Shown: positions 4,209 to 53,455 of the stretch, piece after piece
How positions within the stretch are numbered: position 1 is the first letter of the stretch
How the letters are laid out: every line of letters begins with the position of its first letter
DNA from: Burkholderiaceae bacterium
GTDB taxonomy: Bacteria > Pseudomonadota > Gammaproteobacteria > Burkholderiales > Burkholderiaceae_D
Length of the DNA stretch: 57,196 nucleotides
Direction: 5' to 3'
Assembly (NCBI GenBank): GCA_019745005.1
Contig: JAIETO010000240.1
Coordinates: 1-57,196, forward strand
The notes under the pieces: generated by a model
The model's database searches: none
What the model was told of the DNA's origin: nothing
Seen by the model: only the letters and a program-made list of their open reading frames with translations
Position numbers and translations under genes: made by a program

Positions 4209-4713
4209 GGTGTCTTCCCATTCTATTTTTTGAACCGTGTTTTTAAGGGGCGTTTCGAGCATGTGTCGAAAATTTATCAAAAACTCGCGCCGAACGATGC
4301 GCCCTGAAGTTGCCATTGTACGACTGCAGCAACAGCATGAACACCCTTCGCATGACTTATCGTTTGCCTGCAAAGCTGCAATTTATGCTTCTTTGCGCAC
4401 AGTACCAATCATACTCATTACTGTATTTTTAATTTACGCTTTTAGATAAAGCGCAAACATGCCATAAAATTACAAAAAACAGGGAGTATATTGAAAACAG
4501 CACTTTAATTTAAGCATACACAAACTCGAAAATGCACACGCTATAAGCATAAAAGCGATCCGAAGCAGCAAATGGAACGCAATCAAAACGCGATAATCTT
4601 TTCTCCAGAGCTGCTATGCTAACTGCGAATCCCAATACAGCACCAATACAATTTACCAGATAAAACCCCCAACTGTTGCGCTCTGTTCGCCAATACAATT
4701 TTCCCTTTCCACT
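4209..4713. other. Divergent intergenic region between ridA and mocR-type gene
   Basis: About 505 bp of AT-rich DNA without a credible gene. A 62-codon minus-strand reading at 4510-4698 has no Shine-Dalgarno and no family likeness. The stretch must hold the promoters of both divergent units and the likely MocR operator. It also contains copy 1 of the 80-bp terminal-inverted-repeat element (4411-4490). Confidence 0.6.
4411..4490 (+). repeat. 80-bp TIR element, copy 1
   Basis: Begins ATACTCATTACT and ends CAGGGAGTATA, giving outer inverted repeats. Inside are GTATTTTT and a hairpin ACGCTTTT...AAAGCGC (ACGC starts at 4436). From ACGC to the last A is exactly 55 nt, and ATACTC begins exactly 25 nt before it, as in the copies at 13075, 47437 and 53376. 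It is oriented toward the MocR gene 224 bp downstream. It has no coding potential. Confidence 0.8.
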
Positions 4714-6150
4714 ATGAGCCGTGTCTATCCAAACTTCCCTCCGATGATTACGCGTGATACGGGTGTGTCATTGGTGGAGCAAATCGTTCGCTCCATCACG
4801 CGCAAAATTGACGACAAGCTGTTGCGTACTGGTGCGCGCATGCCCTCTATTCGTCAGTTTGCCGATGAGCAAGAGGTGTCGCGCTTTACCGTGGTTGAAG
4901 CCTATGACCGCCTAGTGGCAAATGGCTATTTGGAGTCGCGCCGCGGGGCTGGATTTTTTGTCTGCGAGCGCGCCGCGTTGTTGGCACAGCAAACGCCACG
5001 CAACCATGTGTTGCCCTTGTCTGAGCAACCTGATGTGGTATGGCTGGTGCGGAATATGTTTCGGCAACTTCCACAAGCGAAAATGCCAGGCTCGGGCGTT
5101 TTACCGCAAGACTGGCTAGACGGCGAACTGGTTGCCAATGGCCTGCGTGCAATTAGCCGCCTCAACCAAAATCTCCTGCTGCATTACGGTACACCGCAGG
5201 GTTTTTTGCCTTTGCGTCAGCAACTCCAACTCAAACTTGCAGAATTGGAAATCGCCGCGCCACCCGAGCAAATCGTGATGACCAGCGGCGTCACACAGGG
5301 CTTAGATTTGGTCGCGCGAGAATTCATCCAACCTGGTGACACGATTTTTGTGGACGAGCCCGCTTGGTTTCTGATGTTTGGCTCTTTCGCAATTTTGGGC
5401 GCCAAAGTGATTGGTATTCCCCGCTTGCACGATGGCCCAGACGTGGTCAAGTTGGCCGAACTCGCGGCAGCACATAAGCCAAAGTTGTACATCATCAATT
5501 CGGTCGTGCATAACCCCACGTCCACCTCCTTGTCTGCCGCAAAAGCTTTCCAAGTTTTACGCGCGGCGGAAGAGCATGACTTTATGGTGGTGGAAGATGA
5601 TGTTTACTGCGACCTGCATTCCGGCGCAACGGTTCAAGCAGGCACACGAGTCGCGACGCTCGACCAATTAAACCGCGTGATTTACCTCGGTAGCTTCTCA
5701 AAAACTTTGGCGGCGAATCTTCGTGTGGGCTTCATTGCTTGTGCGCAGGCGCTTGCGGTGCGCTTGTCCGACCGAAAGATGTTATCAACCCTGACTACCA
5801 CCGAGATCGGTGAACGGGTGGTGTATAAAATTTTGTCCGAAGGGCATTATCGCAAGCATGTCGACCGCATTCGGGTGAAGCTCGATAGTGCGCGCGACGG
5901 CGTGATTAAACGCGTGGAGTCTTTGGGCATGCAGGTGGAATACCGCACCACGGCTGGGATGTTTCTTTGGACGGAAACAGGTCTGGATACCTTAAAACTG
6001 GCAGAACGCGCCTTGGAACAAGGCTTGGTCATCGCGCCGGGTAGTTTATTCTCACCGCATCAACATGCGTCGACCAAAATGCGCATCAACATCGCCGCAA
6101 TGACTGACCCCGCTGTTTGGAGTTTTTTACAGAAGGAATTGGGGAAATAG
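4714..6150 (+). CDS. MocR-type regulator: GntR winged helix fused to aminotransferase domain
   Basis: The 478-residue protein has an N-terminal GntR winged helix (about residues 18-83, including MPSIRQFADEQEVSRFTVVE), a linker, and a fold-type I aminotransferase-like domain with HNPT (267-270), VVEDDVY (292-298) and GSFSK with PLP lysine K330. MocR proteins use PLP or its adduct with an amino acid as the signal. It is divergent from ridA and the aminotransferase at 2450-4208, the usual arrangement of a MocR regulator and its target, so it probably controls those genes. All visible PLP-binding residues are intact. The effector is unknown. Confidence 0.88.
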   Translation: MSRVYPNFPPMITRDTGVSLVEQIVRSITRKIDDKLLRTGARMPSIRQFADEQEVSRFTVVEAYDRLVANGYLESRRGAGFFVCERAALLAQQTPRNHVLPLSEQPDVVWLVRNMFRQLPQAKMPGSGVLPQDWLDGELVANGLRAISRLNQNLLLHYGTPQGFLPLRQQLQLKLAELEIAAPPEQIVMTSGVTQGLDLVAREFIQPGDTIFVDEPAWFLMFGSFAILGAKVIGIPRLHDGPDVVKLAELAAAHKPKLYIINSVVHNPTSTSLSAAKAFQVLRAAEEHDFMVVEDDVYCDLHSGATVQAGTRVATLDQLNRVIYLGSFSKTLAANLRVGFIACAQALAVRLSDRKMLSTLTTTEIGERVVYKILSEGHYRKHVDRIRVKLDSARDGVIKRVESLGMQVEYRTTAGMFLWTETGLDTLKLAERALEQGLVIAPGSLFSPHQHASTKMRINIAAMTDPAVWSFLQKELGK

Positions 6151-6189
6151 CTGTCGGTAAAACGCAGCGATTTGCATAGTTAGAAGCGT

Positions 6190-6232
6190 AAAAAAAAGCC
6201 AGCAAGTCGCATGGAGAATACGTCTTGCTGGC
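6190..6232 (-). terminator. Intrinsic terminator of the metalloprotease gene
   Basis: Stem GCCAGCAAG / CTTGCTGGC (arms at 6198-6206 and 6224-6232). On the minus strand it is followed by a run of eight T. It lies 40 bp after the protease stop; the convergent MocR-type gene ends 40 bp away on the other side. Confidence 0.85.
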
Positions 6233-6271
6233 CAACATCAACGACCAACGTTAATTCTTATTCAGGCTTGC

Positions 6272-8218
6272 TTAGTTCACGACGATTTGTACTGCGTTAG
6301 AGACTGTGAGGCCTCTTGCATCTGTAATTTTCAACACCGCTTCGTAACGACCAATTTTGGTGTAGACGTGCTTAGCCTGTACTGTGGTTTCTACAGCACT
6401 GCCATCACCAAAGCTCCAGCTATACGACACGATGCGGCTGCCTAAAGCGGTGCTGCTGCTCGCATCAAACGTAACAGTGAATGGGCCTTTGCCGGTATTA
6501 CCTGAAGTCGTAAATCGTGCGACTGGTGGCGCGGTGACCACAATAGCGGCTGTTCCGGTGATACTGTACTGACCGATGCTGCCGTAGTTGCTATAGCCCG
6601 TTGTTGCGGGATCACCTTTACCCGCGCCAGCAACCCGTAAAAAGTACGTGCCAGCAGCAGGAATATTGGCGGTGATTGTCGTGCCTAACGTGTCTACAGC
6701 GTTTGATGTCGCGATGACTTTTCCGCTTGCGTCGAGTATTTGCAAAGCGATATCGAGGTTGGCGCTGAGTGGCGCAGCGACGGCTGCCAAAGTGACCGTG
6801 CCTGCACCTGCATTGAACGCCAGCATATCAATATCATTCGGCGTACTAATCACACCGGAAGCCGATAAATTGTTCAAACCGTTTGCCACGCTGCTCGTCA
6901 TGTTTGAAGCAGTGGCGATGGTATTGCCATGATCATCGGCGACTGGTGATAAGCCTTGTTTCAGCATGACGGCATAAGCGTCTTCCTTATTTGTAGCGCC
7001 AGCATATTCACCCTTCGCCCACTGTGTCAGATTCTTGTAATAGCTCACGCCCATAATCGGCGCCCAACCCGTTTCGCCTGTGCCAGAACCACCATAATAG
7101 GTCTCTGCCGCGGTGCTTTGGTGGTGTAGGCCTAGTGTGTGACCGAGTTCATGGGAAATACATTCAGCAATCGGTTTCTCGCTGTTGGCTAAATTATTTT
7201 GGAAGCAAAACGCTGTGGCATTGCTCGCCGTGAAGCTGCTAAACGAATTGAGGTAGGCATAGCCACCTGCGGTACTGGTTTCATTCGTGATGACGATAGT
7301 TGCACCGATCTTGCCGGTGGTGCTCGTGGGGGCTTCTGTCGTGATGTCGACATCGAAGGCGGAATAATCTTCCGCTACGCGCTGCCATACTTTTTGTATC
7401 AAGGTTTGTTCAGCGACGCTAAACGTGCTGGGGTTTTTATCCAAATCAAACGCAGGCTTGGTGCCCTGTCCTTTGAAATTCAAGAAAAGCACTCGGGTCG
7501 AATTTTTCTTTGAATGCAGGCTAAATGTTTGATCTAAAGGTGTTGTAGTCGTAATCGCTGTCGTCGCACCGTTTGTCAACGTCGTTGCCTGCGCCACAGT
7601 ACCCGCAGCCAAGACACGAGACTGATCGGCATTGACACCCGTATCAATATTAAGCAAACGTCCTTTGCGGTCGATGTAGACGGTCTGGTCTTTACGCAAT
7701 AACTCACGCAAAGCTTCGTCACTCAAGCCATACCATTTCGCAACTGCAGGCAATTGCGCGCCCAACAAGGCGATAGCTTCAGTGCCGTTCGAAATTGTCG
7801 GTAACTGTATGCGCGAGAATGGCGCGCCCTCGGTATTACCTTCGCTGTTGTTGGGTACAAAATCCGCTGGCAATTCAAACTGCGCCAACGCTTGTGCGCT
7901 TAAAGTTGTTGATTTACTTACTTGCGAATCTACATTACTTCCTGCTTGATTTCCCGCTGACGTGCCATGCGCTGCGTTCCCGCTTTGATTCACCACAGCC
8001 TGCGCTTGCTGCGTTTGCGCAAGGGGATTGGCACCCCACGCGGTTGCCGCACTGCTTGACGTATTCTGCGCGACCGAAGTAGTCGATGATTTGCTATTAA
8101 TTGCGTGTGTGTCGTTCGAGCCGTCCTCGCTTACCGCGTAGACAGTCAAACCCGACACAGCAAGTGCGGAAACAGCGAGCACAAGCTTTGCCGTTGTTGA
8201 TGGTTTTTGGTTTTTCAT
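6272..8218 (-). CDS. Secreted zinc metalloprotease with pre-peptidase C-terminal and PKD domains
   Basis: The 648-residue protein starts with a signal peptide (basic MKNQK, then a hydrophobic stretch to about residue 28). A Ser/Thr/Gln-rich low-complexity region and propeptide-like segment (about 30-240) precede the catalytic domain. The domain has the metzincin-type zinc motif HELGHTLGLHH (356-366: H356, H360, H366, catalytic E357) and a probable Met-turn IMG (M389). A pre-peptidase C-terminal beta-sandwich (about 455-555) and a PKD domain (about 570-648, with WSFGDG) follow; both are common on exported proteases that bind polymers or are processed on secretion. Shine-Dalgarno AAAGGA precedes the ATG at 8218. 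The leader carries a c-di-GMP-I riboswitch. The substrate is unknown. Confidence 0.9.
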   Translation of the reverse strand: MKNQKPSTTAKLVLAVSALAVSGLTVYAVSEDGSNDTHAINSKSSTTSVAQNTSSSAATAWGANPLAQTQQAQAVVNQSGNAAHGTSAGNQAGSNVDSQVSKSTTLSAQALAQFELPADFVPNNSEGNTEGAPFSRIQLPTISNGTEAIALLGAQLPAVAKWYGLSDEALRELLRKDQTVYIDRKGRLLNIDTGVNADQSRVLAAGTVAQATTLTNGATTAITTTTPLDQTFSLHSKKNSTRVLFLNFKGQGTKPAFDLDKNPSTFSVAEQTLIQKVWQRVAEDYSAFDVDITTEAPTSTTGKIGATIVITNETSTAGGYAYLNSFSSFTASNATAFCFQNNLANSEKPIAECISHELGHTLGLHHQSTAAETYYGGSGTGETGWAPIMGVSYYKNLTQWAKGEYAGATNKEDAYAVMLKQGLSPVADDHGNTIATASNMTSSVANGLNNLSASGVISTPNDIDMLAFNAGAGTVTLAAVAAPLSANLDIALQILDASGKVIATSNAVDTLGTTITANIPAAGTYFLRVAGAGKGDPATTGYSNYGSIGQYSITGTAAIVVTAPPVARFTTSGNTGKGPFTVTFDASSSTALGSRIVSYSWSFGDGSAVETTVQAKHVYTKIGRYEAVLKITDARGLTVSNAVQIVVN

Positions 8219-8263
8219 GATTTTCCTTTGTGTGTTGGTGTTGCGACAAAGGACATACGCGGT

Positions 8264-8341
8264 CGGTAAAACGTCGAGTGGAGATCACTTCTAGCCGCCC
8301 TTGCAAATACAAGCGACGACAATGTGAACTTACGTTTACCG
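8264..8341 (-). promoter_or_regulatory. Possible expression platform of the c-di-GMP riboswitch
   Basis: Just 3' of the aptamer, the RNA contains CGGTAAACG (8341-8333) and, further on, CGTTTTACCG (8273-8264), which can pair with one bulged base. The first arm overlaps the 3' end of the aptamer, so the pairing could compete with aptamer folding. No T-run follows, so control by an mRNA structure or translation is more likely than simple termination. This is inference from complementarity only. Confidence 0.35.
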
Positions 8342-8418
8342 GTAACCCCGCTACCATCATCTTTCAATGTTTAGGCCGGAGGCTTTGCGTCCTTGCCTTT
8401 CAGCAAGTTTGCCCTATG
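8335..8418 (-). ncRNA. Cyclic di-GMP-I riboswitch (GEMM-I)
   Basis: Read on the minus strand, the leader contains in order GGGCAAAC, a GAAA-capped hairpin CTTGCT-GAAA-GGCAAG, GACGCAAAGCCTCCGGCC, TAAAC, and GGTAGCGGGGTTACC. This is the full conserved core of the GEMM-I aptamer, including the tetraloop and its receptor and the GCAAAGCC junction. It lies about 120 nt upstream of the protease start, right behind a promoter whose start point would fall at the aptamer's 5' end. It should make expression of the secreted protease respond to c-di-GMP; the direction (on or off) cannot be read with confidence. Confidence 0.96.
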
Positions 8419-8421
8419 GAA

Positions 8422-8449
8422 ATAATACCCGATACAAAGGCGAAGTCAA
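8422..8449 (-). promoter_or_regulatory. Sigma-70 promoter for the riboswitch-protease transcript
   Basis: On the minus strand TTGACT (8449-8444) and TATTAT (8427-8422) are separated by 16 bp, each matching the consensus at 5 of 6 positions. The predicted start near 8415 coincides with the 5' edge of the c-di-GMP aptamer. Confidence 0.75.
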
Positions 8450-8656
8450 GCAAAACCAGCCCAACTCCTCAATTAAATCTATTAAATTATGTTAATTTAG
8501 TTGCTATCTAAGTATTTGATATTTAAAGATAAATGTAGAAATAACAGGTTTGTTATCAGTGCTAAAACATCGACAGAACAAACCCATATGAAGAAGGCAA
8601 TAAGTGGGGCTTAACGAAAGCTTGAAGCTGGCGCGCCAACTTTCGCCCCGTTACTT

Positions 8657-9763
8657 TTAGATAAACGCGTTTTCTTGATTCATTTGCGTGGATGACATTT
8701 GATGCTTGAAGGCAGGTTTACTCTTGTTTAAGGCCTCTTCTGCACGTTTCAATATCGTCTCAGCACTATCACCTTCTAACATGGTGGCAACGCCAACGCT
8801 TGCCGTCACGCGTAATTCTTTGCCAGAAAAAGGAATTGGCAAAGCGATCACCGTCTCCCTCGCCCGTGCCGCAATGCGCCCGGCAACCTCGGCGGAGGTA
8901 TCTGGCAGCAGCACACAAAATTCTTCTGTACCAAATCTTGCCAAACAATCGTAGTCTCGCGTGGCGCGTTTGACCCGTTTGGTCACTTCAATCAAAACAA
9001 TATCGCTGGCATGGCGTCCGTAGTTTTCGCTGATTTGCTTGAGGTGATCAAGATCCAAAATCAGCACAGACAAATTTTTGCCCAAGCGCCCATGACGTTG
9101 AATTTCATTGCTACTGACGCGAATAAATTCTCGTCGATTAACCACGCCTGTGACTGGATCGGTAATAGCTTGTCGCTCAATTTCCATCTCGGCGCTGAGG
9201 ATTTTTTTTCGATAGCGATGCAAATACGCGCCAATTACATTTCCCGTATATGCGCTAGTCAATAACATGACAGCCACACTCAAAATATACGGAAGATTGT
9301 CTTTCACTTTTAACGCCAATGAAAAAAAACTTAATACTAAAAAGAGCACCATCGCGGGACGTAATGCGCCCACCGGTATCGGCAAGGCAATGAAATAAAT
9401 CATGCACATCCAAGCAGCAAAGAGATAATGCCCAAAATAACTGGTGGGGAGCATCACATCGTTAATCAATTGCATGAGCAGCACAGCGGCGCTCCACATC
9501 GATACTTGACGCGTTAAAGTCGCTAGGTCGTGAATCGTACCGAGTTTCTTTAAGAGCCACCAAGAATACGCAAAGATAAAAATCCGTACTGCCGAAATCG
9601 CCCAAAAGGCATCACTCATCACAAGTAGATAAAAATCAAGAAATGCCAAAAGTGGCAAAGCCCACATCACCACCCTGACGACGCGACGAGACTGAATACG
9701 ATCTTGCTTTAAATAATGGAGACGATACACTTCGTCATTTACGTCAGGATAATGAACAGCCAC
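8657..9763 (-). CDS. Membrane GGDEF-domain protein (diguanylate cyclase, variant active site)
   Basis: The 368-residue protein has a membrane part with about five to six hydrophobic helices (about residues 30-182), then a GGDEF domain beginning at TDPVTGVVNRR (201-211). The signature is GTEEF (278-282) in place of GGDEF/GGEEF, and the allosteric I-site RxxD is present as RDYD (269-272). The metal Asp lies in LDLD (237-239), but the usual FKxxND is LKQISEN, so the Asn that contacts guanine in characterised cyclases is Ser. It may therefore make c-di-GMP weakly or act as a sensor. It lies about 200 bp upstream of a c-di-GMP riboswitch, on the same strand. Confidence 0.88.
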   Translation of the reverse strand: MAVHYPDVNDEVYRLHYLKQDRIQSRRVVRVVMWALPLLAFLDFYLLVMSDAFWAISAVRIFIFAYSWWLLKKLGTIHDLATLTRQVSMWSAAVLLMQLINDVMLPTSYFGHYLFAAWMCMIYFIALPIPVGALRPAMVLFLVLSFFSLALKVKDNLPYILSVAVMLLTSAYTGNVIGAYLHRYRKKILSAEMEIERQAITDPVTGVVNRREFIRVSSNEIQRHGRLGKNLSVLILDLDHLKQISENYGRHASDIVLIEVTKRVKRATRDYDCLARFGTEEFCVLLPDTSAEVAGRIAARARETVIALPIPFSGKELRVTASVGVATMLEGDSAETILKRAEEALNKSKPAFKHQMSSTQMNQENAFI

Positions 9764-9973
9764 GGCGACCCCTCTTCAACGTAGATTAAGCGACATATTG
9801 ATAAGTGAATTTATTATAATGTGATTAGACGGGCGTTCTGTGATTTACGGAAGCACGAGCGACACGAATTTGTTGAGTCGCATTTTTTGCGCACGCAATT
9901 TTGATCGAAACCCGCGCAGTAACAAAGCGGGGTCATCAAATCCACCTTTTTATTGAACACATCACACAACTAC

Positions 9974-11362
9974 ATGGATATTCTTCTTTACGACAACTGG
10001 GAACGCCAGCTTCGCACGTTTACACCTATCCACAAAGAGTGGGTTGGCTTGTACTGCTGCGGCCCAACGGTGTATGACTACGCCCATATTGGCAATCTAC
10101 GCACCTATTTGTTTGAAGATTTTTTGCGTCGGACGCTGGAATTCAATGGCCACCACGTACGCCACGTCGTCAACATTACCGACGTGGGTCACCTGGTCTC
10201 TGACGCTGATGATGGCGAAGACAAAATGGAAGCAGGAAGCAGGCGCACTGGCGAGTCGGCTTGGGATATCGCTGAAAAATACACGGTAGCATTTAAAGCA
10301 GACTGCGCGCTTTTGCACATTCGCGAGCCACAAATTTGGTGCAAAGCGACCGATCATATCGCCGAACAGATCGCCTTTATCGCTGCCATTGAAGCAAAAG
10401 GCTTTTGCTATCAAACCAGTGACGGTGTGTATTTCGACACCTCAAAGCAAGATGACTATGGCTATTTGGCACGTTTAAACCGAGCCGGTATCGAGGCTGG
10501 AAAGCGCGTGGATATTGGCGAGAAACGCAATGCGACGGATTTCGCTTTGTGGAAGATCAGTCCAAAAGATTCGCAACGCCAAATGGAATGGGATAGCCCA
10601 TGGGGACGTGGCTTTCCTGGCTGGCATATTGAGTGCTCGGCGATGTCCGCCAAATATTTGGAGCCTTGGTTTGATATCCATTGCGGCGGCGAAGATCACA
10701 TTCCTATCCACCACACGAATGAAATCGCGCAAAACCAAGCTTGCTACAACACGCGCTTAGCCAATTATTGGATGCACGGCTATTTCTTGCAGATTGATGC
10801 GGGCAAAATGTCGAAATCGAGCGGTGATTTTCTGCGCTTACAAACAGTGATAGACCAAGGTTACGACCCGCTCGCCTACCGTTTGCTCTGCCTTTCTGCG
10901 CATTACCGTAGCCAGCTCAATTTTAGCTGGGACGCATTAAAAGCGGCCCAAACAGGCCTAAACCGCTTGCGCGAATCGTACTTTGCAATGCCTGCTGGCG
11001 GCAGTGTCAACGAAGAATTTGCCCAACGTTTTCTGCACGAAATCAACCAAGATTTGAACTTACCTAAAGGCTTGGCCTTGGCTTGGGAAGTATTGAAATC
11101 AGACATATCAGACGCAGATAAAAAAGCAACGATCACCCATTTTGATTTGGTATTGGGCTTAGAGCTGGCCCAATGGCAACCCAAGGCGGCCGAACTTCCA
11201 GCCGAGGTAATCGCTCTCATGGAACAGCGCAAGCAAAGCCGCGCCAACAAAAATTGGGCGGAATCAGATCGCCTGCGCAATGAAATCAATGCGCTTGGTT
11301 ACGACGTGGAAGATAGCGCAGGTGGTATGAGTGCGAAACCGCGCGCAGGGGTTTCGGTCTAA
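9974..11362 (+). CDS. cysS: Cysteine--tRNA ligase, divergent type
   Basis: Charges tRNA-Cys with cysteine. The ATG at 9974 is preferred; an in-frame TTG at 9953 adds seven unlike residues, and neither has a good Shine-Dalgarno. The 462-residue class I synthetase has CCGPTVYDYAHIGN (HIGH variant HIGN at 38-41; zinc Cys C29), WHIECS with C221, HHTNE (zinc H246/E250 region) and KMSKS at 278-282. After the first helix it reads VNITDVGHLVSDADDGEDKME, unlike the NITDIDDK form of common proteobacterial CysS, so it belongs to a divergent subgroup. All catalytic and zinc residues are present. Whether a second, canonical cysS exists cannot be judged here. Confidence 0.9.
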   Translation: MDILLYDNWERQLRTFTPIHKEWVGLYCCGPTVYDYAHIGNLRTYLFEDFLRRTLEFNGHHVRHVVNITDVGHLVSDADDGEDKMEAGSRRTGESAWDIAEKYTVAFKADCALLHIREPQIWCKATDHIAEQIAFIAAIEAKGFCYQTSDGVYFDTSKQDDYGYLARLNRAGIEAGKRVDIGEKRNATDFALWKISPKDSQRQMEWDSPWGRGFPGWHIECSAMSAKYLEPWFDIHCGGEDHIPIHHTNEIAQNQACYNTRLANYWMHGYFLQIDAGKMSKSSGDFLRLQTVIDQGYDPLAYRLLCLSAHYRSQLNFSWDALKAAQTGLNRLRESYFAMPAGGSVNEEFAQRFLHEINQDLNLPKGLALAWEVLKSDISDADKKATITHFDLVLGLELAQWQPKAAELPAEVIALMEQRKQSRANKNWAESDRLRNEINALGYDVEDSAGGMSAKPRAGVSV

Positions 11363-11370
11363 AGAAGACG

Positions 11371-11403: not shown

Positions 11404-11417
11404 TCGCTACACTTCGG

Positions 11418-12870: not shown

Positions 12871-13245
12871 ATGTACTATCGAAAATAAACAAAGACCCGA
12901 AGTTAGAATTCAAGCCAAAAAATGAGGGTAAAGTTTCACCACTTCGTATGCACAGCTAAAACCACGGAGCTTCTGGTCTCACTATAGTCATAAATTGAAA
13001 ATACTGAATCTCAGAATCTCAATGCAAAACTTAGTTTTTGTGGTGCTTTAACTTTGCGCCTAGTCTAAAGGCACATACTCCAATAAGTATTTTTATAATG
13101 CGCTTTAATTAAAGGCGCAAAGATAGAATAAATGTTTTAAATATTGGGAGTATATGATTAACTTGCGGAAAAACTTTTCAAACAACTGTGATTTTTCAAA
13201 AAAACTCACTCGTGCGGCAGGAGCAAAAATCCATCGTCACCAAAC
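12871..13245. other. infB-rbfA spacer without genes
   Basis: About 375 bp of AT-rich DNA with no credible reading frame; it holds the second 80-bp repeat copy (13075-13154). The segment next to it carries GCGCC/GGCGC-type short inverted repeats (around 13056-13072) that may extend the folding of the element. It must also contain any separate rbfA promoter. Confidence 0.55.
13075..13154 (+). repeat. 80-bp TIR element, copy 2
   Basis: The best preserved copy. It begins ATACTCCAATAA and ends TATTGGGAGTATA, so the outer arms are almost perfect inverted repeats. GTATTTTT follows the left arm, and the inner hairpin is GCGCTTTAATTAAAGGCGC (from 13100). The distance from GCGC to the end is 55 nt, identical to the other copies. 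It lies in the infB-rbfA spacer, on the strand opposite those genes. Confidence 0.82.
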
Positions 13246-44465: not shown

Positions 44466-44495
44466 AATATTGTGCTCATTCTGAAATAAGAGAAC

Positions 44496-45833: not shown

Positions 45834-47357
45834 TTAATTGGCAAGTTTCAACTTGAGTTGCGTTTGCGGCGGCAATGCGACTTCGCCGCACAAACAGGCA
45901 AGCAAAGCCTGCAAGGCTGGCCGCGCAAAGCCGAAGGTCATCAAGGCGGGCGCGTCGATATCGAGCACTTGGTAGGGGCTCCACAAAGCCACGTGCAGAG
46001 CGGGTTTCCACGTATTGCGCACCTGCTGCGGATAACGTGCACGCTGGCTTGAAATCAAAATTGATAAACGACCATCGTCTGGCATCGTTGCCCAATCAAA
46101 GTCTTCGGCTTGCTCAAACGTCGTGACTTGCACATCGAATTTTGTCGCGAATAAGTCTTGAATTTCTTGCACGCTTACACCGCGTTCGGTCACGCCATCA
46201 CTTTGCGCATGCTTGCGTATGACGAGGCGAATCTTGCTGCCCTTGGGCGGGCACTTCACCTGCCCGAATGACGCTAAACCCTGTTGCCACGCGCGTGCCA
46301 TGAGGGTTTCGTCTTGTTCGCGGGTTAAATATTCACTTTGGGCGCTTGGAAAATTTTTCGCAAGTTGCCGTAAGCGCCGCACATTTTGATCGTTGCTTGC
46401 TGTGCTGATCACACCAGAATTGATCGCCTCACTAATCGCTTGCCAAGTCGTTTCTTGCTCTTTAACGCTCCCTAAGGCCATCACCATATCGGCACCCGCT
46501 TGCAATGCCATGACGGCCGCCTCCCCTGCACCAAAGTGATCGGCAATCGCTTGCATTTCCATACTGTCCGTGATGACCACACCATCGTAGCCCCAAGCGT
46601 CGCGCAAAATGCCTTGCAAGATTGTTCGCGACAAAGTGGCGGGCAAGTCTGGATCAAGCTGCGGATACACAATATGCGCCGTCATCATGGCAGGTGCGTG
46701 TGGGGCGCACTGTTGAAAAGGAAAAAACTCTTGCTGCTCCAACTCTTGCAGCGACTTATTCACTACCGGTAGAGCGCGGTGCGAATCAACCCGCGTATCT
46801 CCATGGCCAGGAAAATGTTTCAAGCAAGTGGCCACGCCCTCTTGCAAACTTGCTTGCATCCATGCACTGGCTAACATTGCCACCTGCTTTGGGTCGTCAC
46901 CAAATGCGCGTTCGGCAATTACGGGGTTATGGGGATTGCTATTCACATCTAAGACCGGCGCAAAATTCCAATTAAATCCCAAGGCCTTAATGCCGCGCGT
47001 CACAGCGGCCCCCACATCGCTGCAAAGTGCGGAGTCATTTGCTGCCCCCAAACACATGGCCGATGGTGCCTCGGGTAGCCAAGTTGTACGCATGACCGCT
47101 CCGCCTTCTTGGTCTATCGCAATCAATGCTGCTGGCCCCAAAACGTCCTGCAAGTCGGCAATCAGGCGCCGCAATTGTGCTTCGTCGCGCATGTTTTGGC
47201 GAAACAAACACACGGCGCGAATATGGTGCGCCGTTAAAAATGCGCGTGTCTCATCGCTCAGCGTATGCCCAAAAATACGCACCATCATGCACTGCCCTGC
47301 CCGCTCCCCAGCATTCATGGATTTGTCGAACATCGTCTTTGCGGGTTTTGCGTGCAT
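45834..47357 (-). CDS. Two-domain GH3 beta-N-acetylhexosaminidase (NagZ-like)
   Basis: The ATG at 47357 is chosen; an in-frame TTG at 47384 is the other candidate. The 507-residue protein has the GH3 barrel with DQEGGAVMR, KHFPGHGDTRVDSH (catalytic His-Asp loop, 180-193) and nucleophile D264 in VITDSMEM. It is longer than single-domain NagZ, the C-terminal part being like the second GH3 domain. It probably cleaves GlcNAc from chitin or murein fragments, and lies by the nagK-nagR-nagA operon, on the same strand. Confidence 0.88.
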   Translation of the reverse strand: MHAKPAKTMFDKSMNAGERAGQCMMVRIFGHTLSDETRAFLTAHHIRAVCLFRQNMRDEAQLRRLIADLQDVLGPAALIAIDQEGGAVMRTTWLPEAPSAMCLGAANDSALCSDVGAAVTRGIKALGFNWNFAPVLDVNSNPHNPVIAERAFGDDPKQVAMLASAWMQASLQEGVATCLKHFPGHGDTRVDSHRALPVVNKSLQELEQQEFFPFQQCAPHAPAMMTAHIVYPQLDPDLPATLSRTILQGILRDAWGYDGVVITDSMEMQAIADHFGAGEAAVMALQAGADMVMALGSVKEQETTWQAISEAINSGVISTASNDQNVRRLRQLAKNFPSAQSEYLTREQDETLMARAWQQGLASFGQVKCPPKGSKIRLVIRKHAQSDGVTERGVSVQEIQDLFATKFDVQVTTFEQAEDFDWATMPDDGRLSILISSQRARYPQQVRNTWKPALHVALWSPYQVLDIDAPALMTFGFARPALQALLACLCGEVALPPQTQLKLKLAN

Positions 47358-47436
47358 GGAATTTTTCGCCTTCTTGTTTGGCAATTGATGATGCTAGCTT
47401 GTGTCGGTTCAAACCAACTTTTACAAGGAAAAAACC

Positions 47437-47516
47437 TATACTCCCCATAAATTTTAGTTTTTATATGTGCTTACGCTTCAAATTAAAGCGCATTCGAAAA
47501 ATACTATAATGGGTAT
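47437..47516 (-). repeat. 80-bp TIR element, copy 3
   Basis: On the minus strand it runs from ATACCCATTATA (47516) through GTATTTTT and the hairpin GCGCTTTAATTTGAAGCGT (from 47491) to GGGGAGTATA (47437). The distances, 25 and 55 nt, are the same as in the other three copies. It ends 80 bp upstream of the GH3 start and could affect its leader. A family 3 palindrome lies 8 bp further upstream. Confidence 0.82.
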
Positions 47517-47524
47517 AATTAAAC

Positions 47525-47720
47525 TAGAGTTATGTTTAGATTGAATGTTGATAAAACTAAAGGCTCGCATTGCAAAAAAACCTCTCAACACAGAGACACG
47601 GAGAGAAGCAAAAAAGCCGTTGTTGTTATCTCTCGTTTCTCCTCTGTGTCTCCGTGTTGAGAGGTTTTGACCCTTCTCTTTATCGGTGGACGTCATCAAC
47701 ACCAAACCTGAACATAGCTA
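47525..47720. repeat. Imperfect palindromic repeat (family 3), copy 2
   Basis: About 195 bp. Outer ends GTTATGTTTAGATT and AACCTGAACATAGC are inverted repeats. The inner arms AACCTCTCAACACAGAGACA (47579-47598) and the complementary stretch ending GTGTTGAGAGGTTT (to 47668) pair over about 30 bp with few mismatches around a 28-nt loop. The whole could fold as one long hairpin. It lies between nagA and the GH3 gene, and may act as the nagA terminator. Confidence 0.78.
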
Positions 47721-47760
47721 AAATTAGTTGAATAACACAAACCACGACGTGAGAAACTTT

Positions 47761-48876
47761 TCACAAATGCAGATCGATTTTCTCGCCCTCGACAAACACT
47801 TCCAGCAATTGCAAATCACGGCTCATGACGACCACGTCTGCATACGCGCCGAGTGCAAGACGTCCGCGTTCAGGCAAACCTAAATAGTCGGCGGGAAAGG
47901 TCGCAACGCGGCGCACGGCGTCGTCAATTTCTAGACCTATCGAGACTAAATTGCGTAAAGCCTGATCCATGGTTAAGGTGCTGCCCGCCAAGGTGCCGTC
48001 TTTCAGGCGGACGCCGCCCATGCATTTGTGCACCACTTGGCGGCCAAGTAAATAATCGCCATCGGGCATGCCGGAAGCCGCCGTAGAATCGGTCACGCAA
48101 TACAGTTTGGGAATCGCGCGCAAGGCCGTCATGATGGCACCGGGGTGCACGTGTTGAAGATCAGGAATAATTTCAGCAAATTCGGCATGCGCTAAGGCGG
48201 CACCTACCATGCCGGGTGCTCTGTGATCTAAGCGCGACATGGCGTTGTACAAATGCGTAAAGCCGCTGGCACCCAAGTCAATTGCCGCTAAAGCTTCTTC
48301 ATACGAGCCTAAGGTATGGCCCAATTGCACACGCAAACCTAGGGCGGCTAATCCTGCCACCAATTGCAAATGTCCTTGAATTTCTGGCGCCAGAGTAACG
48401 ACGCGAATATCGGCAATGGCATGCAGCTTTTGTATCGCCTCGAGCGAGCCCGTTTGCACAAAATTGGGTTGGGCGCCCAGTTTTTCTGGGTTGATGTAGG
48501 GTCCTTCCAAATGCACGCCTAAGACCCGCGCCGTGCCTTTGCTGCGCGACGCCATTTCGGCGGCTACACCGACTAACGCGCTCTCTAATTCCGCCATGGG
48601 CGCCGTCATGGTGGTTGCTAGCAAACTGGTGGTGCCGTGCCTTGCGTGCAATTGCGCGATCACTTCCATCGCGTCGTCGCCTTGCATCACATCACGCCCC
48701 GCACCGCCATGCACATGCAGATCGATGAAGCCAGGCAAAATATACGGCGCGTTGTTATCCGCTGGGTCAGCCACAGTGCCTTCAATCTCGAGAATTTTTT
48801 CGGCAAAATGAATACTGCCTAGGCCCCAACCACCTGGTGTCAATATATTGCCCCGTAGGCTAGTTTTTGGAATCAT
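47761..48876 (-). CDS. nagA: N-acetylglucosamine-6-phosphate deacetylase NagA
   Basis: The 371-residue amidohydrolase converts GlcNAc-6-P to GlcN-6-P and acetate. Metal and active-site residues are in order: IDLHVHGG (H54, H56), HLEGP (E124), LGHT (H187), THLYNAMS (H208), and TDSTAASG with catalytic D263. ATG at 48876 overlaps the nagR stop by 4 bp (ATGA). No nagB (deaminase) is in the window. Confidence 0.94.
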   Translation of the reverse strand: MIPKTSLRGNILTPGGWGLGSIHFAEKILEIEGTVADPADNNAPYILPGFIDLHVHGGAGRDVMQGDDAMEVIAQLHARHGTTSLLATTMTAPMAELESALVGVAAEMASRSKGTARVLGVHLEGPYINPEKLGAQPNFVQTGSLEAIQKLHAIADIRVVTLAPEIQGHLQLVAGLAALGLRVQLGHTLGSYEEALAAIDLGASGFTHLYNAMSRLDHRAPGMVGAALAHAEFAEIIPDLQHVHPGAIMTALRAIPKLYCVTDSTAASGMPDGDYLLGRQVVHKCMGGVRLKDGTLAGSTLTMDQALRNLVSIGLEIDDAVRRVATFPADYLGLPERGRLALGAYADVVVMSRDLQLLEVFVEGEKIDLHL

Positions 48877-49604
48877 TTGAACAGCTCCACGACGAAATCG
48901 TAATAATCATTGCGGCAGTAGGAGTGCGTTAATTCTACTGCCGCGCCATTTGCTAGGTAGGCAACGCGCGTAATCAACAACATTGCCGCACCCGTTTTAA
49001 TCTGCACCATGCGCGCTTGCTCGGCCGTTGCGTTGACAGCCCTTATATGCTGTAGCGCACGCGCTGGTGCGTGTTGCAGTTCTTCCAAATGTCCATACAA
49101 GCTATGCGTGACTTTTTTGGGATCAGGTAAATATACGCTGGGTACGGTGCTGGTTTCAATCGCCATCACAACTTTATCCGCCGTTCTCAGGCGTTTTAAG
49201 CGTGCCACTTGGCTGCTGGGCGACAGCCCTAGCGATAAAATCTCTTCGCTGTTCGCCGTTGCGATACTACGCGACAGCCATTTCGAGCCGGGCGTAAAGC
49301 CGCGCTGACGCAATTCTTCACTGAAATTGGTTAAACGTGTTAATGGCTGTTCCAAGCGCAGCGTGATGTACGTACCCGAGCCATGGCGGCGTTCTAACAA
49401 GCCTTGTTTGCAAAGCAAATCCACGGCGCGCCGCGTGGTGACGCGAGAAATGCCCAGCGCCTCACACAGACTGCGCTCGGAAGGCAAAGCCTCATTGACT
49501 TGAAAAAATGCCGAATAGATGAGCTCTTTTAATTTGCTCGCCAACTGGATGTAAAGTGGCGTCGCTAAGCTTTCATCGAGACGGAAATTGAGCGTGGCAG
49601 TCAA
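48873..49604 (-). CDS. nagR: GntR/HutC-family regulator of the nag operon (NagR-like)
   Basis: The 243-residue protein has a GntR winged helix (about 12-78, SERSLCEALGISRVTTRRAVDLLCKQGLLERRHGSGTYI) and a UTRA effector domain (about 95-240). It begins with TTG at 49604 overlapping the nagK stop (TTGA), and GAGGGCGG lies a few bases earlier. Located inside the nagK-nagR-nagA operon, it is likely a repressor responding to GlcNAc-6-P or GlcN-6-P. Confidence 0.88.
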   Translation of the reverse strand: MTATLNFRLDESLATPLYIQLASKLKELIYSAFFQVNEALPSERSLCEALGISRVTTRRAVDLLCKQGLLERRHGSGTYITLRLEQPLTRLTNFSEELRQRGFTPGSKWLSRSIATANSEEILSLGLSPSSQVARLKRLRTADKVVMAIETSTVPSVYLPDPKKVTHSLYGHLEELQHAPARALQHIRAVNATAEQARMVQIKTGAAMLLITRVAYLANGAAVELTHSYCRNDYYDFVVELFK

Positions 49605-50494
49605 TTGTTACCGCCCTCGCTCAGCAATTTCTTTTGCAGCAGGATTAGCGCACCAGTTGCCGCATCGGTTTGTGGCGGTACCACCCGCACTTTCAATTCG
49701 TCAGGCAGGTAAGGCTTAATCGAAGATGCCAAACCGCCATTCAACGCAATCGGCATTGCGCCACTGGGGTCAAGTGCGAATGCGGTGAGCGCCACTGCGC
49801 GACCGGCTTCCTGTAACAAAGCTAAAGCGCGTGCACTTGTCTCGGCGGTTTGCACAACTAAGGGCGCCAGTTGCGCCATTGTGGTTTGATTCGCCGCGAT
49901 GCCCCATTTCATCAGGGTCTCGCGGCTTCCACCACAAAATGCCAAGACGGCATTTGCCAAACTATCGCTTTTACAGCGTCCATCGGCGACATGTTGCGCA
50001 TGGTTCAATGCGCGCAAACCTAGCCAAGCGCCGCTTGCTTCGTCGCCAGAGGGAAAACCCCAGCCGCCTACTTCGCGCTTGCTGCCATCAGCCAACAACG
50101 CTAAACCAACGCTGCCTGTGCCTAGCGCAATCACAACGCCAGGTTCACCGCCAAAAGCTCCAATTAAATTGGTCAACGCATCCGATGCCGTAACGACAAG
50201 GCCAAAGCCGGGATTTTTAGCTAAAAAATCGGCACACCATTCATCGTTATTCATTCCCGCTAAGCCGCAACCCAAGGCGATTTGATTCAAAGGCGGCGTC
50301 GCAAAACCAGCCTCAAAGAACGCCAAATTGATGGCATTTTGAATTGCTTGCCAAGCCCTCGGTACGCCATGCATCAAACCCGATGGGCCAGCCTGCCCAG
50401 CCCCTAGCTCGTGGCCATTGGCATGCCGCAGTATGACCCGCGTGCCAGTGCCACCGCCATCAACACCTACGAGATAAAGAATTTTTCGATGCAT
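49601..50494 (-). CDS. nagK: BadF/BadG/BcrA/BcrD-family N-acetylglucosamine kinase
   Basis: The 297-residue ASKHA-fold kinase has VGVDGGGTGTRVIL near the N-terminus (phosphate 1), GCGLAGMN and ALGTGSVGLAL (phosphate 2), and GGLAS near the end. Position with nagA and nagR suggests that it phosphorylates GlcNAc or a related hexosamine entering without PTS. The first gene of the operon, it follows a good promoter at 50583-50611. The name is by context; glucosamine kinase is possible. Confidence 0.82.
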   Translation of the reverse strand: MHRKILYLVGVDGGGTGTRVILRHANGHELGAGQAGPSGLMHGVPRAWQAIQNAINLAFFEAGFATPPLNQIALGCGLAGMNNDEWCADFLAKNPGFGLVVTASDALTNLIGAFGGEPGVVIALGTGSVGLALLADGSKREVGGWGFPSGDEASGAWLGLRALNHAQHVADGRCKSDSLANAVLAFCGGSRETLMKWGIAANQTTMAQLAPLVVQTAETSARALALLQEAGRAVALTAFALDPSGAMPIALNGGLASSIKPYLPDELKVRVVPPQTDAATGALILLQKKLLSEGGNN

Positions 50495-50928
50495 CTTGGG
50501 TCGCTAACTATGTTGGCTAGGTTGAAAACCAGAGATTGGCGTGACAGAAATAGTTTTATTTTAATACCGCGCAATGCCTATCACTTTATGAAGTGCTAAA
50601 GTGGTTGTCAAGATGTATTTAAGTGGTATTTAAAATTTATTCGAACGAGACTATTTCCGAATGTGAAAAAAACGGCAGTAAGGTCATTTTTGTGAGGTTC
50701 ACCATCACTTTTCTTTGGCTTTTTCTGTTCCAGTTTTTCTGACGTGATCTTTTTTGCGTAGTCACGTCATGCAAAGCCTTTGTATTTGCTTCTTGTTGTT
50801 CGGCGAAGTGTGGATTAAAGTAAGGACTGACCTTATGCCCCTAGCGGGCGGTTGTGAGAATCAAAGTTTGAAACCAAAGCGCAGAAACACCAGCTCGATA
50901 AAATAATCAAAAAGCGACGCAGCACCCT
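50495..50928. other. Divergent spacer between nagK and DUF1275 gene
   Basis: About 430 bp, with the nag operon promoter (50583-50611) and no credible gene. A stretch at about 50735-50775 contains ACGTGATC and GTCACGTC, a short inverted pair. No family 1-3 repeat was found in it. It must also hold the DUF1275 promoter. Confidence 0.5.
50583..50611 (-). promoter_or_regulatory. Sigma-70 promoter of the nagK-nagR-nagA operon
   Basis: On the minus strand TTGACA (50611-50606, perfect -35) and TAAAGT (50588-50583, 4 of 6) are 17 bp apart. The start would lie about 80 nt before the nagK ATG. Nearby AT-rich half sites may be the NagR operator. Confidence 0.6.
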
Positions 50929-51660
50929 ATGCCCACCCATTACCTCGCCAAACTCACCTCACCCAAGCGCACTGCAAGGGCGAACTTGCACTTGGGCGCC
51001 GCTTTGGCATGTGTGGCAGGTGCGCTCAACGCAGGCGGTTTTCTTGCAGTAGGTCAGTACACGTCGCACATGACGGGCATGCTTTCTATGGCGGCGGACG
51101 ATCTCATTTTGGGCCGCATCGTGCCAGCGATTGCTGCGTTCTTGATGTTGATGTCTTTCATTTGTGGCGCAGCTTCGACTGCACTGATCGTAAATTACGC
51201 GCGACGCAATCACCTACGCTTTATCTACACGCCAGTGCTGCTGATCGAAGCGGGTTTGCTGCTGGTTTTTGGTTTAGTGGGCGTAAATTTACAACGCCAT
51301 GAATTTATCAACGTGTCATTGACGGCCGTTCTACTTTGCTTCGTCATGGGCTTACAAAATGCCTTGATTACAAAAATTTCGAACGCAGAAATTCGTACTA
51401 CACATGTGACAGGCTTGGTCACCGATTTGGGTATTGAACTAGGCAAATTGATTTATTGGAATCGCGATAAAAGCACCTCGCACGAGACGGAGGTCGGCGC
51501 AAACGGCCAAAAGTTGCGCGTGCATGCCATCTTAATTGCCATGTTTTTTTTGGGCGGTGTACTGGGTGCAGCAGGTTTTAAATACGTCGGTTTTATCTCA
51601 ACGGTGCCCTTGGCGTTGGCCTTGATTGTGCTCGCCGTGGCGCCCCGTTTTGCTGATTAG
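50929..51660 (+). CDS. DUF1275 (YoaK-family) membrane protein
   Basis: The 243-residue protein has about six membrane helices; GALNAGGFLAVGQYTSHMTGMLS and FVMGLQNALITKISNAEIRTTHVTGLVTDLGIELGKL are the family hallmarks. The function of DUF1275/YoaK proteins is not known; some are linked to stress tolerance. A small gene follows 10 bp downstream and the two likely form an operon. Confidence 0.88.
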   Translation: MPTHYLAKLTSPKRTARANLHLGAALACVAGALNAGGFLAVGQYTSHMTGMLSMAADDLILGRIVPAIAAFLMLMSFICGAASTALIVNYARRNHLRFIYTPVLLIEAGLLLVFGLVGVNLQRHEFINVSLTAVLLCFVMGLQNALITKISNAEIRTTHVTGLVTDLGIELGKLIYWNRDKSTSHETEVGANGQKLRVHAILIAMFFLGGVLGAAGFKYVGFISTVPLALALIVLAVAPRFAD

Positions 51661-51670
51661 GAGAATGCGT

Positions 51671-52069
51671 ATGGCGGATATTTTCAAAAAACTGAACTTA
51701 AAAGATCAAACGGAAATCGTCGTGCTACATGCGCCAGAGAGCTTTGAAGCGGAGCTAGGAAGTTTGCAAAATATCGTCGTGCATCGCAAACTCAAACCCC
51801 AGCATGCTTTGCAATTCGGCTTAGCTTTCGTGACACAAGAAAAAGTCTTGGATGAGGTTTCGGCGGCAATGACCAAACAAGCGAAAGGCGATGCCTTGAT
51901 TTGGATTGCCTATCCGAAAAAATCGTCAAAAAAATATCATTGCGAATTTAATCGAGACAGTGAATGGCGCGTGTTAAGCGAAGCAGGTTATGAGACTGTG
52001 CGCATGGTCGCGATCGACGAGGATTGGAGCGCCCTGCGTTTTCGAAAATCGGCGTTTGTCGGCAAGTAA
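51671..52069 (+). CDS. DUF3052-like small soluble protein
   Basis: The ATG at 51671 is preceded by TAGGAG; the longer in-frame reading overlaps DUF1275. The 132-residue soluble protein resembles DUF3052: LKDQTEIVVLHAPESF, DALIWIAYPKKSSKK and MVAIDEDWSALRFRKSAFV. The last stretch is the strongest match. The function is unknown. It is 10 bp after the DUF1275 gene and may be co-expressed. It converges on the DUF2252 gene. Confidence 0.75.
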   Translation: MADIFKKLNLKDQTEIVVLHAPESFEAELGSLQNIVVHRKLKPQHALQFGLAFVTQEKVLDEVSAAMTKQAKGDALIWIAYPKKSSKKYHCEFNRDSEWRVLSEAGYETVRMVAIDEDWSALRFRKSAFVGK

Positions 52070-52097
52070 GCTTACCAACAAGCTGCGTGTGTCAATC

Positions 52098-53336
52098 TCA
52101 ACTTGGCTGCGTATTGATCGTAAAAACGCCTGCATCAAAACCGGCGCAATAACTTTGCCAATCATTGTGCGCTTCTTCCGCGCAATGCCGCGCAAGCGCA
52201 ATCGCCTCAAGGCGCCACGCCTCTTGTTGACCAAAATCCACCAACTCATCGGCGATCGCCGCGCCGCCGCGCCCGCTGGCGCGCAAATGCGCCGAGGCGG
52301 ACAACATACCCAACGCCTGCATCAAGTTTTTTAGCTCTGGCAGGGTATGACTCAATGGTGCTAAGCGAATGCGATCTTCGGATGCTTGCAAGGCGCGCAA
52401 TACGAAATCATGCTCGTTCATTCGCACTGCCTGCAGGAAGGCCATAGGCACGCCTTGCAGCCGTTGTTGCAGTTGAACGATGCGCTCCGCATCTGAATGC
52501 CACGTGGCGGCTTGCAACTTAAAACGCGCAAAATTATTGTGCATGGAAGCGGGCACTGCGCGTTTGAGGTCGAGCAAATAATGTCCATCTTCGCCGCCCT
52601 TGCCTTCCACCAGCACCAAGTAGCGCTCTAGGCCCAAGCTACCCGTGCCCGCGACGCGCCGCGCCACATCGACCGGTTCAAAAAATTCCTTGTCCAACTG
52701 CGTGTGGGCGAAATTTTTCATGAAGGCCATGACCATCGCGCGTTCAGCATCATCGGCGGGGAGTGCCTTCTTGCCGTCAACTTTTAGCATGCGTTGCTTT
52801 TTTTTCTTGGTCGTTCGACTATCTAAAAGGTCGGCGCGTTGGCGAGTTTTCACTTCGTCTAATAGATGCTTAATCATGCCAGTTGCCGTCTCTGCTTCTA
52901 TCCACCGCGCTTTACCGCTGGCTAAAGTTTGTGCGTAACTATTGACCAATTGCGTCGCTAACATTTGTGCAGCGGCCTCATCAATTTCTAGCGCGGGAGC
53001 CGCAATAAAAAGACTACTTAGTAAGCGCACCAGATCCCACCCCAAAGGCGCACGGCCAGACTCGTCGAAGTCGTTGATGTCGAAATACGCTAAGCGATTG
53101 TCGCCCTTGTAACTGCCAAAATTTTCTAAATGCAAATCACCACAGCACCAAACTAGGGGGCTATGCGTGACGAAGTGTTCTTCAGGTAGACGATCATAAA
53201 AAAGATGACAAGTGCCGCGAAAAAACGTGAATGCCGATTCACGCATCAAGGCATATTTCATCTGCAAACGCAGCTCGTCCCGACCTGCGTTAAAACGCCG
53301 TATGACTTCGCAAACATCCGTTGTTTCGCTTCGCAC
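52098..53336 (-). CDS. DUF2252 protein (kinase-like fold candidate)
   Basis: The 412-residue protein begins with GTG at 53336 behind GGAAG. It matches DUF2252: FRGTCHLFYDRLP, CCGDLHLENFGSYKG, FDINDFDESGRAPLGWDLVRLL, and a later segment TGSLGLERYLVLVEGKG. The GDLHLENFG and DxNDFDE motifs recall the catalytic and metal loops of aminoglycoside-phosphotransferase-like kinases, so a kinase role is plausible but unproven. The gene is followed by convergent DUF3052-like gene at 52069. Confidence 0.85.
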   Translation of the reverse strand: MRSETTDVCEVIRRFNAGRDELRLQMKYALMRESAFTFFRGTCHLFYDRLPEEHFVTHSPLVWCCGDLHLENFGSYKGDNRLAYFDINDFDESGRAPLGWDLVRLLSSLFIAAPALEIDEAAAQMLATQLVNSYAQTLASGKARWIEAETATGMIKHLLDEVKTRQRADLLDSRTTKKKKQRMLKVDGKKALPADDAERAMVMAFMKNFAHTQLDKEFFEPVDVARRVAGTGSLGLERYLVLVEGKGGEDGHYLLDLKRAVPASMHNNFARFKLQAATWHSDAERIVQLQQRLQGVPMAFLQAVRMNEHDFVLRALQASEDRIRLAPLSHTLPELKNLMQALGMLSASAHLRASGRGGAAIADELVDFGQQEAWRLEAIALARHCAEEAHNDWQSYCAGFDAGVFTINTQPS

Positions 53337-53375
53337 GATTACGCTTCCAAAAGAGAATTTCTGTGTTGTTTAATG

Positions 53376-53455
53376 ATACTGCCACTAGTTTTTTAGCAAT
53401 ACGCTTTAAATATGAGCGGAAATGGTGCAAAAAAATTCAAAATATCGGGGGTATG
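53376..53455 (+). repeat. 80-bp TIR element, copy 4
   Basis: Runs from ATACTGCCACTA through GTTTTTTAGCAAT and ACGCTTTAAATATGAGCG (ACGC at 53401) to CGGGGGTATG, with the same 25 and 55 nt distances as the other copies. It is the most diverged: the final ATA is ATG and the hairpin is weaker. It lies between the DUF2252 start and the mgtC end, both on the minus strand. Confidence 0.75.

Follow-up and report, generated by a model that had tools for sequence, protein, structure and literature searches.

An 80-bp composite intergenic element dispersed through Undibacterium and related genomes, probably the site of a predicted protein complex

In bacteria, dispersed repeats are commonly interpreted as mobile elements in decay. 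The ERIC, RUP, and Correia elements are bacterial miniature inverted-repeat transposable elements (MITEs). Other dispersed sequences act as sites. Those of matS/MatP and SlmA are single short operators that are palindromic and organize the chromosome, and the DNA uptake sequences (DUS) of the Neisseriaceae are short and not confined to the gaps between genes. The subject here is an 80-bp element that occurs four times in a 57,196-nucleotide stretch of a Burkholderiaceae bacterium (contig JAIETO010000240.1, called the window; its 3.84-Mb genome is G000) and at many further places in that genome and its relatives. On balance, the copies are probably composite binding sites of a predicted protein complex that are inherited in place.

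Repetitive extragenic palindromes (REPs) measure 20–40 bp and are tagged with GTAG or CGTC; most are found in gaps between unidirectional or convergent genes, and the GTAG type is linked to REP-associated tyrosine transposases (PMC3733652). The elements studied here resemble the REPs and bacterial interspersed mosaic elements in being numerous, extragenic, and palindromic, and their gap preference in Glaciimonas is similar; they differ in being 80 bp long and composite, in lacking the GTAG/CGTC tag, and in a position and orientation that are shared across species (PMC3733652). None of five Burkholderiales genus names searched for occurs in that text. With bacterial MITEs (PMC10969869), they share shortness, a non-coding nature, many copies, and, in one of two classes, inverted ends. 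They differ from MITEs in that no clear target-site duplication was seen, none of the mapped sites was empty, and the second class has directly repeated ends. As with the matS/MatP and SlmA sites, they are dispersed and palindromic, lie beside functionally unrelated genes, and show selection on their letters (in Glaciimonas). In contrast to these sites, they have a composite architecture that extends over about 80 bp, contains an invertible module, and differs in form between species, and no strand or domain pattern appeared in the tests. A genome-wide word that differs between species is also known from the DUS dialects. Among the open-access papers searched, judged by titles and abstract openings, none appears to describe the 80-bp repeat.

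The element is built of modules. In the left module, ATAC (alignment columns 1–4) faces GTAT (columns 13–16) across a nearly random spacer of eight bases (N8), and a T-tract follows at columns 17–20. The central dyad consists of CGC at columns 27–29 and GCG at columns 41–43. The right module distinguishes two classes. In class I, it reads AAAAAA-NN-GGSAGTAT at columns 64–79 (30 copies aligned), whereas class II carries this 16-bp module inverted in place, as ATACTSCC-NN-TTTTTT at columns 65–80, with the left 50 bp unchanged (12 copies). Terminal inverted repeats are thus present in class I, and the ends of class II are direct repeats. The letters conserved across the family are ATAC, GTAT, CGC, GCG, and AGTAT. 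Of 61 copies from G000, 60 have an N8 as left spacer; other genomes have N8 or N9, and the length of this spacer varies between genomes at some orthologous places. The deduplicated G000 set of 61 copies holds 44 members of class I and 17 of class II, and 1.2 Mb of the Glaciimonas genome KJC hold 56 of class II and two of class I. The copies in hand from other Undibacterium genomes are nearly all class I, but these sets were partly drawn with a class I search pattern, which skews the class ratios outside of KJC and the G000 sample.

An earlier, sequence-only reading of the window had concluded from the density of four copies in 57 kb that many should exist in the genome, which is borne out. An ungapped matrix of the 47-bp core, built from copies that blastn and iterated scanning had retrieved, detects 32 places in a sample of 444,254 bases (the window plus stretches of contigs C1–C4 and C6–C8). 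This amounts to one per 14 kb, and the scores of 28 to 60 lie far beyond the top score of about 10 in three local first-order simulations with the same local dinucleotides. The right box, which lies outside of the matrix, is found in 32 of the 32 copies at one of two positions, within a few bases. Since an ungapped matrix could not find indels in the core, the lack of indel copies in this list proves nothing. A sequence-only core model of the first 49 columns places at least 150 copies in the whole G000 genome, all with E≤1.5e-5. The genome search that the sequence-only reading had proposed yields far more than four copies, and the scan of the sample shows an excess over simulated sequence. 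Solitary right boxes were considered as an independent signal and rejected, as they are not enriched (16 outside of elements versus 29 expected from base composition).

Elements can keep their place and direction across species. Positions were judged by comparing the flanking proteins, which gave 17 groups with elements of 2–5 genomes each between orthologous genes, or 56 distinct cross-species pairs (114 with sites fetched twice). The orientation is identical in all 56. One group spans Undibacterium and Glaciimonas; 16 are informative, because the remaining one (G014–G016) is identical DNA. Ten flanking genes at the orthologous sites, among them uvrB, dxs, and genes for a phosphomannomutase, a helicase, and a heptosyltransferase, are functionally unrelated. 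The identity of orthologous partners is often no higher than that of random copies (mean 0.67 versus 0.61), which indicates that the pairs are old.

A closer comparison is offered by the two Glaciimonas genomes KJS and KJC, whose flanks are mostly 90–98% identical. Among 48 KJS sites, 21 could be mapped; 20 of these carry the element in KJC, and the remaining one measures 77 rather than 80 bp. Twelve of the 21 have their counterparts at KJC loci that were retrieved for holding an element, and a similar choice partly determined the C14/C22 stretches. In an unselected comparison with 1.0 Mb of KJC (the first 680 of 726 kb of C10 and the first 320 of 345 kb of C19), seven KJS sites map by both flanks, of which six are intact, one is degraded (77 bp), and none is empty; two more KJS elements are matched by one flank only, and 39 of the 48 have no match there. 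The sequence-only reading had suggested looking for copies absent at orthologous sites, and no such empty site occurs among the Glaciimonas sites mapped.

The 21 KJS–KJC pairs, in which the KJS member was chosen by its motif, also provide the measure of selection, which covers Glaciimonas only. Substitutions affect 3 of 356 positions (0.8%) in the common motif columns and 6 of 167 in the right box, compared to 89 of 962 (9.3%) in the other element columns, 17 of 169 in the N8 spacer, and 324 of 4086 in the flanks within 100 bp. The difference between motif and other columns (p about 1e-9, uncorrected) corresponds to an about elevenfold deficit, and the motif-based choice of one pair member could halve the expected motif changes. 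The motif columns are clearly under purifying selection in Glaciimonas. Alignment gaps are likewise fewer inside of the elements (nine events per 1,654 bases) than in the flanks (47 per 4,086), and the exact spacing, as the finder demands, is kept in 20 of the 21 partners. The proposal of the sequence-only reading that the element is a DNA site kept by selection is supported by these constrained columns and by the position and orientation shared across species.

The central dyad takes on a different form in different species. It reads GCGCTTT..AAAGCGC in G000, CCGCAT..ATGCGG in Glaciimonas, and GCGCA..TGCGC in G006. The strongest departure is found in G015, in which CGC/GCG is present in none of 30 copies. 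Here, the left half-site is TCC or CCC in 28 of 30 and the right one GGG or GGA in 26 of 30, so the dyad reads YCC...GGR, and the outer modules are unchanged. In the 25 copies with T/C and G/A as outer letters, these letters vary independently between the two half-sites (p 0.67), which fits half-sites that are read by a protein and not a hairpin. At four of the 30 loci, the flanking genes are orthologous to those of elements in other species and the orientation agrees with theirs; these counterparts mostly carry CGC/GCG, and we read the G015 dyad as probably rewritten in place. The finders used for the target-site duplication and orthology comparisons need most of CGC/GCG, so dialect counts outside of G015 lean toward CGC. 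In G015, the conserved ends also seem to extend outward, as in many copies TAAT or AAAT precedes ATAC and ATTAAA or a similar sequence follows GTAT.

The kept distances between the modules, the free spacers, the shared place and orientation, and the species-wide difference of one module make it rather likely that the elements are the sites of a co-evolving protein complex. Each element would be a composite double-stranded DNA site for a putative multi-subunit complex, with its parts at fixed distances. The facing ATAC half-sites (N8 or N9 apart) and the T-tract would be followed about 26 bp on by the central dyad (CGC-N11-GCG in most species) and about 37 bp further by the A/T-tract and the ATACTSCC box, whose direction distinguishes class I from class II. 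The sites, which number dozens to hundreds, lie between functionally unrelated genes, are inherited in place, and avoid promoter gaps in Glaciimonas; the same complex would bind them all. The predicted role is the organization of the chromosome (anchoring, topology, or segregation) rather than the regulation of single genes. Given a co-evolving complex, this role is a tentative assignment with clearly less than an even chance, and it is the likeliest one because the placement is not accounted for by the function of the neighboring genes, by promoters, or by the replication strand. A more specific version, in which chromosome-wide docking sites and their complex would shift specificity together (as the G015 dyad, rewritten in place, may illustrate) and the right module would have two stable orientations, falls only somewhat short of an even chance.

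Several observations weigh against the interpretation as sites of a complex. No binding protein was found, and no search aimed at one was made. The distribution is patchy: among 39 genomes of the genus, a model of all 80 columns has at least seven matches in 14, one match in seven, and none in 18, and the core model with stricter filters matches only eight of 294 genomes of the family, in two of 44 genera. The window genome takes part in only three of the cross-species groups, with 61 distinct copies in hand. The copy between rbfA and infB in the window was not found at the loci of 29 relatives, 13 of them aligned, and the copy beside a nagZ-like gene, which has the same place and orientation in G006, is present in 1 of 29 relatives' loci. 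In G015, six further loci are matched by a single flank, and two of these six show the opposite orientation; 20 of the 30 loci have no match among the elements in hand. The fixed spacing is favored but not absolute, as the nine gap events inside of the Glaciimonas elements show. No strand or domain bias appears along the three closed chromosomes of G014, G016, and G015 (simple bins, listed hits), and the spacing in G015 is irregular (coefficient of variation 1.10 for the 150 hits listed). Divergent gaps are not depleted in G000, where gap lengths predict 12% convergent and 23% divergent, and in tandem gaps of KJC and G000 combined, 33 of 50 elements lie on the strand of the genes (p 0.03). Finally, three pairs of class I copies in G000 reach at least 0.80 identity versus 0.32 pairs in column shuffles, and self-comparison of G014 and G016 reveals local near-duplicates that start at the left end of the element or reach beyond it. 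A replication-strand polarity was considered separately and rejected for lack of strand bias along G014, G016, and G015.

Genomes with zero matches may hide other dialects, because the core-model search missed G015, which has at least 150 matches to the 80-column model. The Glaciimonas KJS and Herminiimonas CN genomes have at least 141 matches each at E≤0.01, and KJS has 56 at E≤1e-5; the cultured Undibacterium Jales W-56 has at least 88 at E≤0.01. Genomes rich in sites are G000, G011, G014, G015, G016, and G035, and the closed genomes G005 and G062 gave no match. The exact class I pattern, searched for in 84,980 genomes, returns 70 stretches from records titled Undibacterium, Glaciimonas, Herminiimonas, Oxalobacteraceae, or one Burkholderiales metagenome-assembled genome. 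Gains or losses over longer times occur, as seen for the rbfA–infB and nagZ-side copies; in several of the nagZ-side loci of relatives that were inspected, the gene order differs. A lone element-like sequence without the central dyad lies at C1:1672952 in the 6.7-Mb genome G026, about 3 kb from a nagZ-like gene, and is possibly a relic.

The alternative that survives best, although it is unlikely, is a non-autonomous MITE- or REP-like element that spread in bursts through a transposase acting in trans, which would demand the exact 80-bp architecture; the present copies would be old survivors. The discrete ends with inverted repeats in class I, the patchy distribution, the absence of the rbfA–infB copy from 29 relatives, the more similar class I pairs in G000, and the near-duplicates of G014 and G016, some of which begin at the left end of the element, speak for it. 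The last indicate that sites are copied at times. A target-site duplication would be the expected trace and was sought at 122 class I and 20 class II copies under 512 settings with 60 shuffles each. No clear duplication emerged: the best boundary has 35% matching letters versus 30% in shuffled pairings (z 4.4, best of 512), has no exact flanking repeat, and shows exact 5-mers in at most 5 of 122 copies in the rows shown. Among the 42 class I copies of G000 that were compared, the top pairwise identity is 0.85 versus 0.79 (95% 0.82) in column shuffles, and a G018 pair at 0.94 identity belongs to a larger duplication, since its flanks are similar too. At odds with a mobile element are the full occupancy between the Glaciimonas genomes (7 of 7 sites in two contiguous stretches), the place and orientation shared in 16 of 16 informative groups, the directly repeated ends of class II, the selected motif columns beside drifting spacers, and the absence of either exact class pattern from 2.9 million viral contigs. 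The sequence-only reading had named a MITE and recent spread as candidates; the former is not supported, given the lack of a clear duplication, the lack of an empty mapped Glaciimonas site, and the class II ends, and the latter finds no support in the Glaciimonas sites mapped. Older copying of the elements may have occurred.

The genomes G014 and G016 also contain clusters of three similar same-strand elements in less than 8 kb, next to further local duplications. A gene-cassette (attC-like) array was suggested by these clusters and was rejected, as self-comparison shows local duplications instead. An apparent 1-kb cassette in G016 (L319 16779–16858; L315 near 17390) is better read as a deletion in G014, by which a 247-aa gene was lost together with the larger part of an element, whose right end remains. 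Between these two closed genomes, stretches of 15–16 kb are 99.4–99.9% identical beside sequence at 76–82%, which suggests recent exchange or an assembly mix-up.

Less probable still is a structured RNA or terminator that acts by a hairpin at the 3′ ends of transcripts. The gene context in Glaciimonas would suit it. The 58 KJC elements lie in 34 tandem, 21 convergent, and three divergent gaps, with none inside a gene, and compared to the expectation from gap lengths, convergent gaps are enriched (23% expected, p 0.03) and divergent gaps depleted (20% expected, p 0.003). The agreement of 33 of 50 elements with the strand of tandem genes hints at transcription as well, and eight folds gave z-scores of −0.6 to −4.0. 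In a mixed-genome core set, the central dyad covaries (none of 500 shuffles reaches the score), but relatedness alone can give this; a mixed class I set shows weak covariation (10 of 500 shuffles reach the score). These signals arise because species tend to have different dyads, and they fit symmetric protein recognition equally well as RNA pairing. Within G000, no paired columns covary, the dyad arms included. An Rfam scan of the window brought only a c-di-GMP riboswitch and a tRNA to the cut-off and no match to the element, and the best hit in a permissive scan of the rbfA–infB copy has E 0.9. The remark of the sequence-only reading that no named family matches thus holds for Rfam, and its suggestion of a structured RNA fares poorly, given the missing within-genome covariation and the ends of class II, which are direct instead of inverted and cannot form an outer stem. 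No T-run follows the dyad. Three terminator-like sites were found in the four window gaps, and none coincides with the dyad: the right end of the fourth copy is overlapped by one of them, and two lie in the rbfA–infB gap outside of the element. Finally, elements occur on both strands relative to the genes.

Operators of one global transcription factor are improbable. The palindromic half-sites with a species-specific consensus would agree with this explanation, as would the first window copy, whose gap is divergent and which coincides in part with two weak promoter-like matches (0.9 expected). In G000, elements occupy 16 tandem, eight convergent, and six divergent gaps, and one element overlaps a called gene (17, eight, and five in an earlier gene call); the 6 of 30 in divergent gaps likewise suit operators. 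In KJC, however, only 3 of 58 are in divergent gaps versus 20% expected, the neighboring genes are functionally unrelated, and a fixed architecture of 80 bp is long for a single factor. DNA uptake sequences with Neisseriaceae-like dialects, to which the species-wide form of the dyad would correspond, are very improbable for a composite of 80 bp instead of a short word, with 0 of 58 copies inside KJC genes, no enrichment of solitary right boxes (16 versus 29 expected), and only tens to hundreds of copies.

All four window copies belong to class I, and their coordinates, strands, and intergenic location are confirmed (open reading frame and Pfam context), as is the equal spacing of the ATAC end, the CGC...GCG center, and the right box. 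Copy 1 (4411–4490, plus strand, core model E 5.1e-11) is flanked by a YjgF-family gene (minus) and a GntR/aminotransferase gene (plus); in the alignment, its left half-site pair ATAC-N8-GTAT spans 4411–4426 (columns 1–16), its central dyad CGC-N11-GCG 4437–4453 (columns 27–43), and its right box GGGAGTAT 4482–4489 (columns 72–79), all on the plus strand. Copy 2 (13075–13154, plus, E 6.4e-12) lies between rbfA and infB, both on the minus strand, and has the same three parts on the plus strand at 13075–13090, 13101–13117, and 13146–13153 (right box again GGGAGTAT). Copy 3 (47437–47516, minus) is located upstream of a nagZ-like gene of glycosyl hydrolase family 3, with an amidohydrolase gene on the other flank; its left pair ATAC-N8-GTAT is aligned at 47501–47516, its dyad CGC-N11-GCG at 47474–47490, and its right box GGGAGTAT at 47438–47445, all on the minus strand. 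Copy 4 (53376–53455, plus, E 1.0e-7), with a DUF2252 gene on one flank and an mgtC-like gene on the other (both minus), is the most diverged: its sequence has a degenerate left pair ATAC-N8-GTTT at 53376–53391, the dyad CGC-N11-GCG at 53402–53418, and the right box GGGGGTAT at 53447–53454, each on the plus strand. The sequences that the first description had assigned to all four copies need correction in part. The outer arm ATACTCC stands for copy 2 only, as the others read ATACTCA, ATACCCA, and ATACTGC, and both GGGAGTAT and GTATTTTT hold for three copies, with copy 4 reading GGGGGTAT and GTTTTTTT instead.

Two other features of the window were recorded. A c-di-GMP-I riboswitch aptamer at 8338–8423 (minus, 80.4 bits) lies upstream of a 648-aa open reading frame at 6272–8218 (minus). 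Upstream of copy 3, at about 47575–47670, a separate long inverted repeat AACCTCTCAACACGGAGACACAGAG...CTCTGTGTTGAGAGGTT is present, and GC-richer repeats that resemble it occur in the rbfA spacers of the relatives G009 and G030; together, they are perhaps another repeat family.

The elements lack features, among those tested, that define MITEs, REPs, Rfam families, or terminators, and we regard them as a new kind of site family with in-place dialects; if all dispersed binding sites are counted as one kind, they are a variant of it. The family includes copies whose position and orientation outlast speciation, with key letters that are selected, as measured in Glaciimonas, and spacers that drift freely. 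If a complex binds the elements, they would form a chromosome-scale system in a group of beta-proteobacteria, and G015 would be a natural experiment in re-specification, next to relatives without a detected site. This opens the function of the sites to tests in cultured strains.

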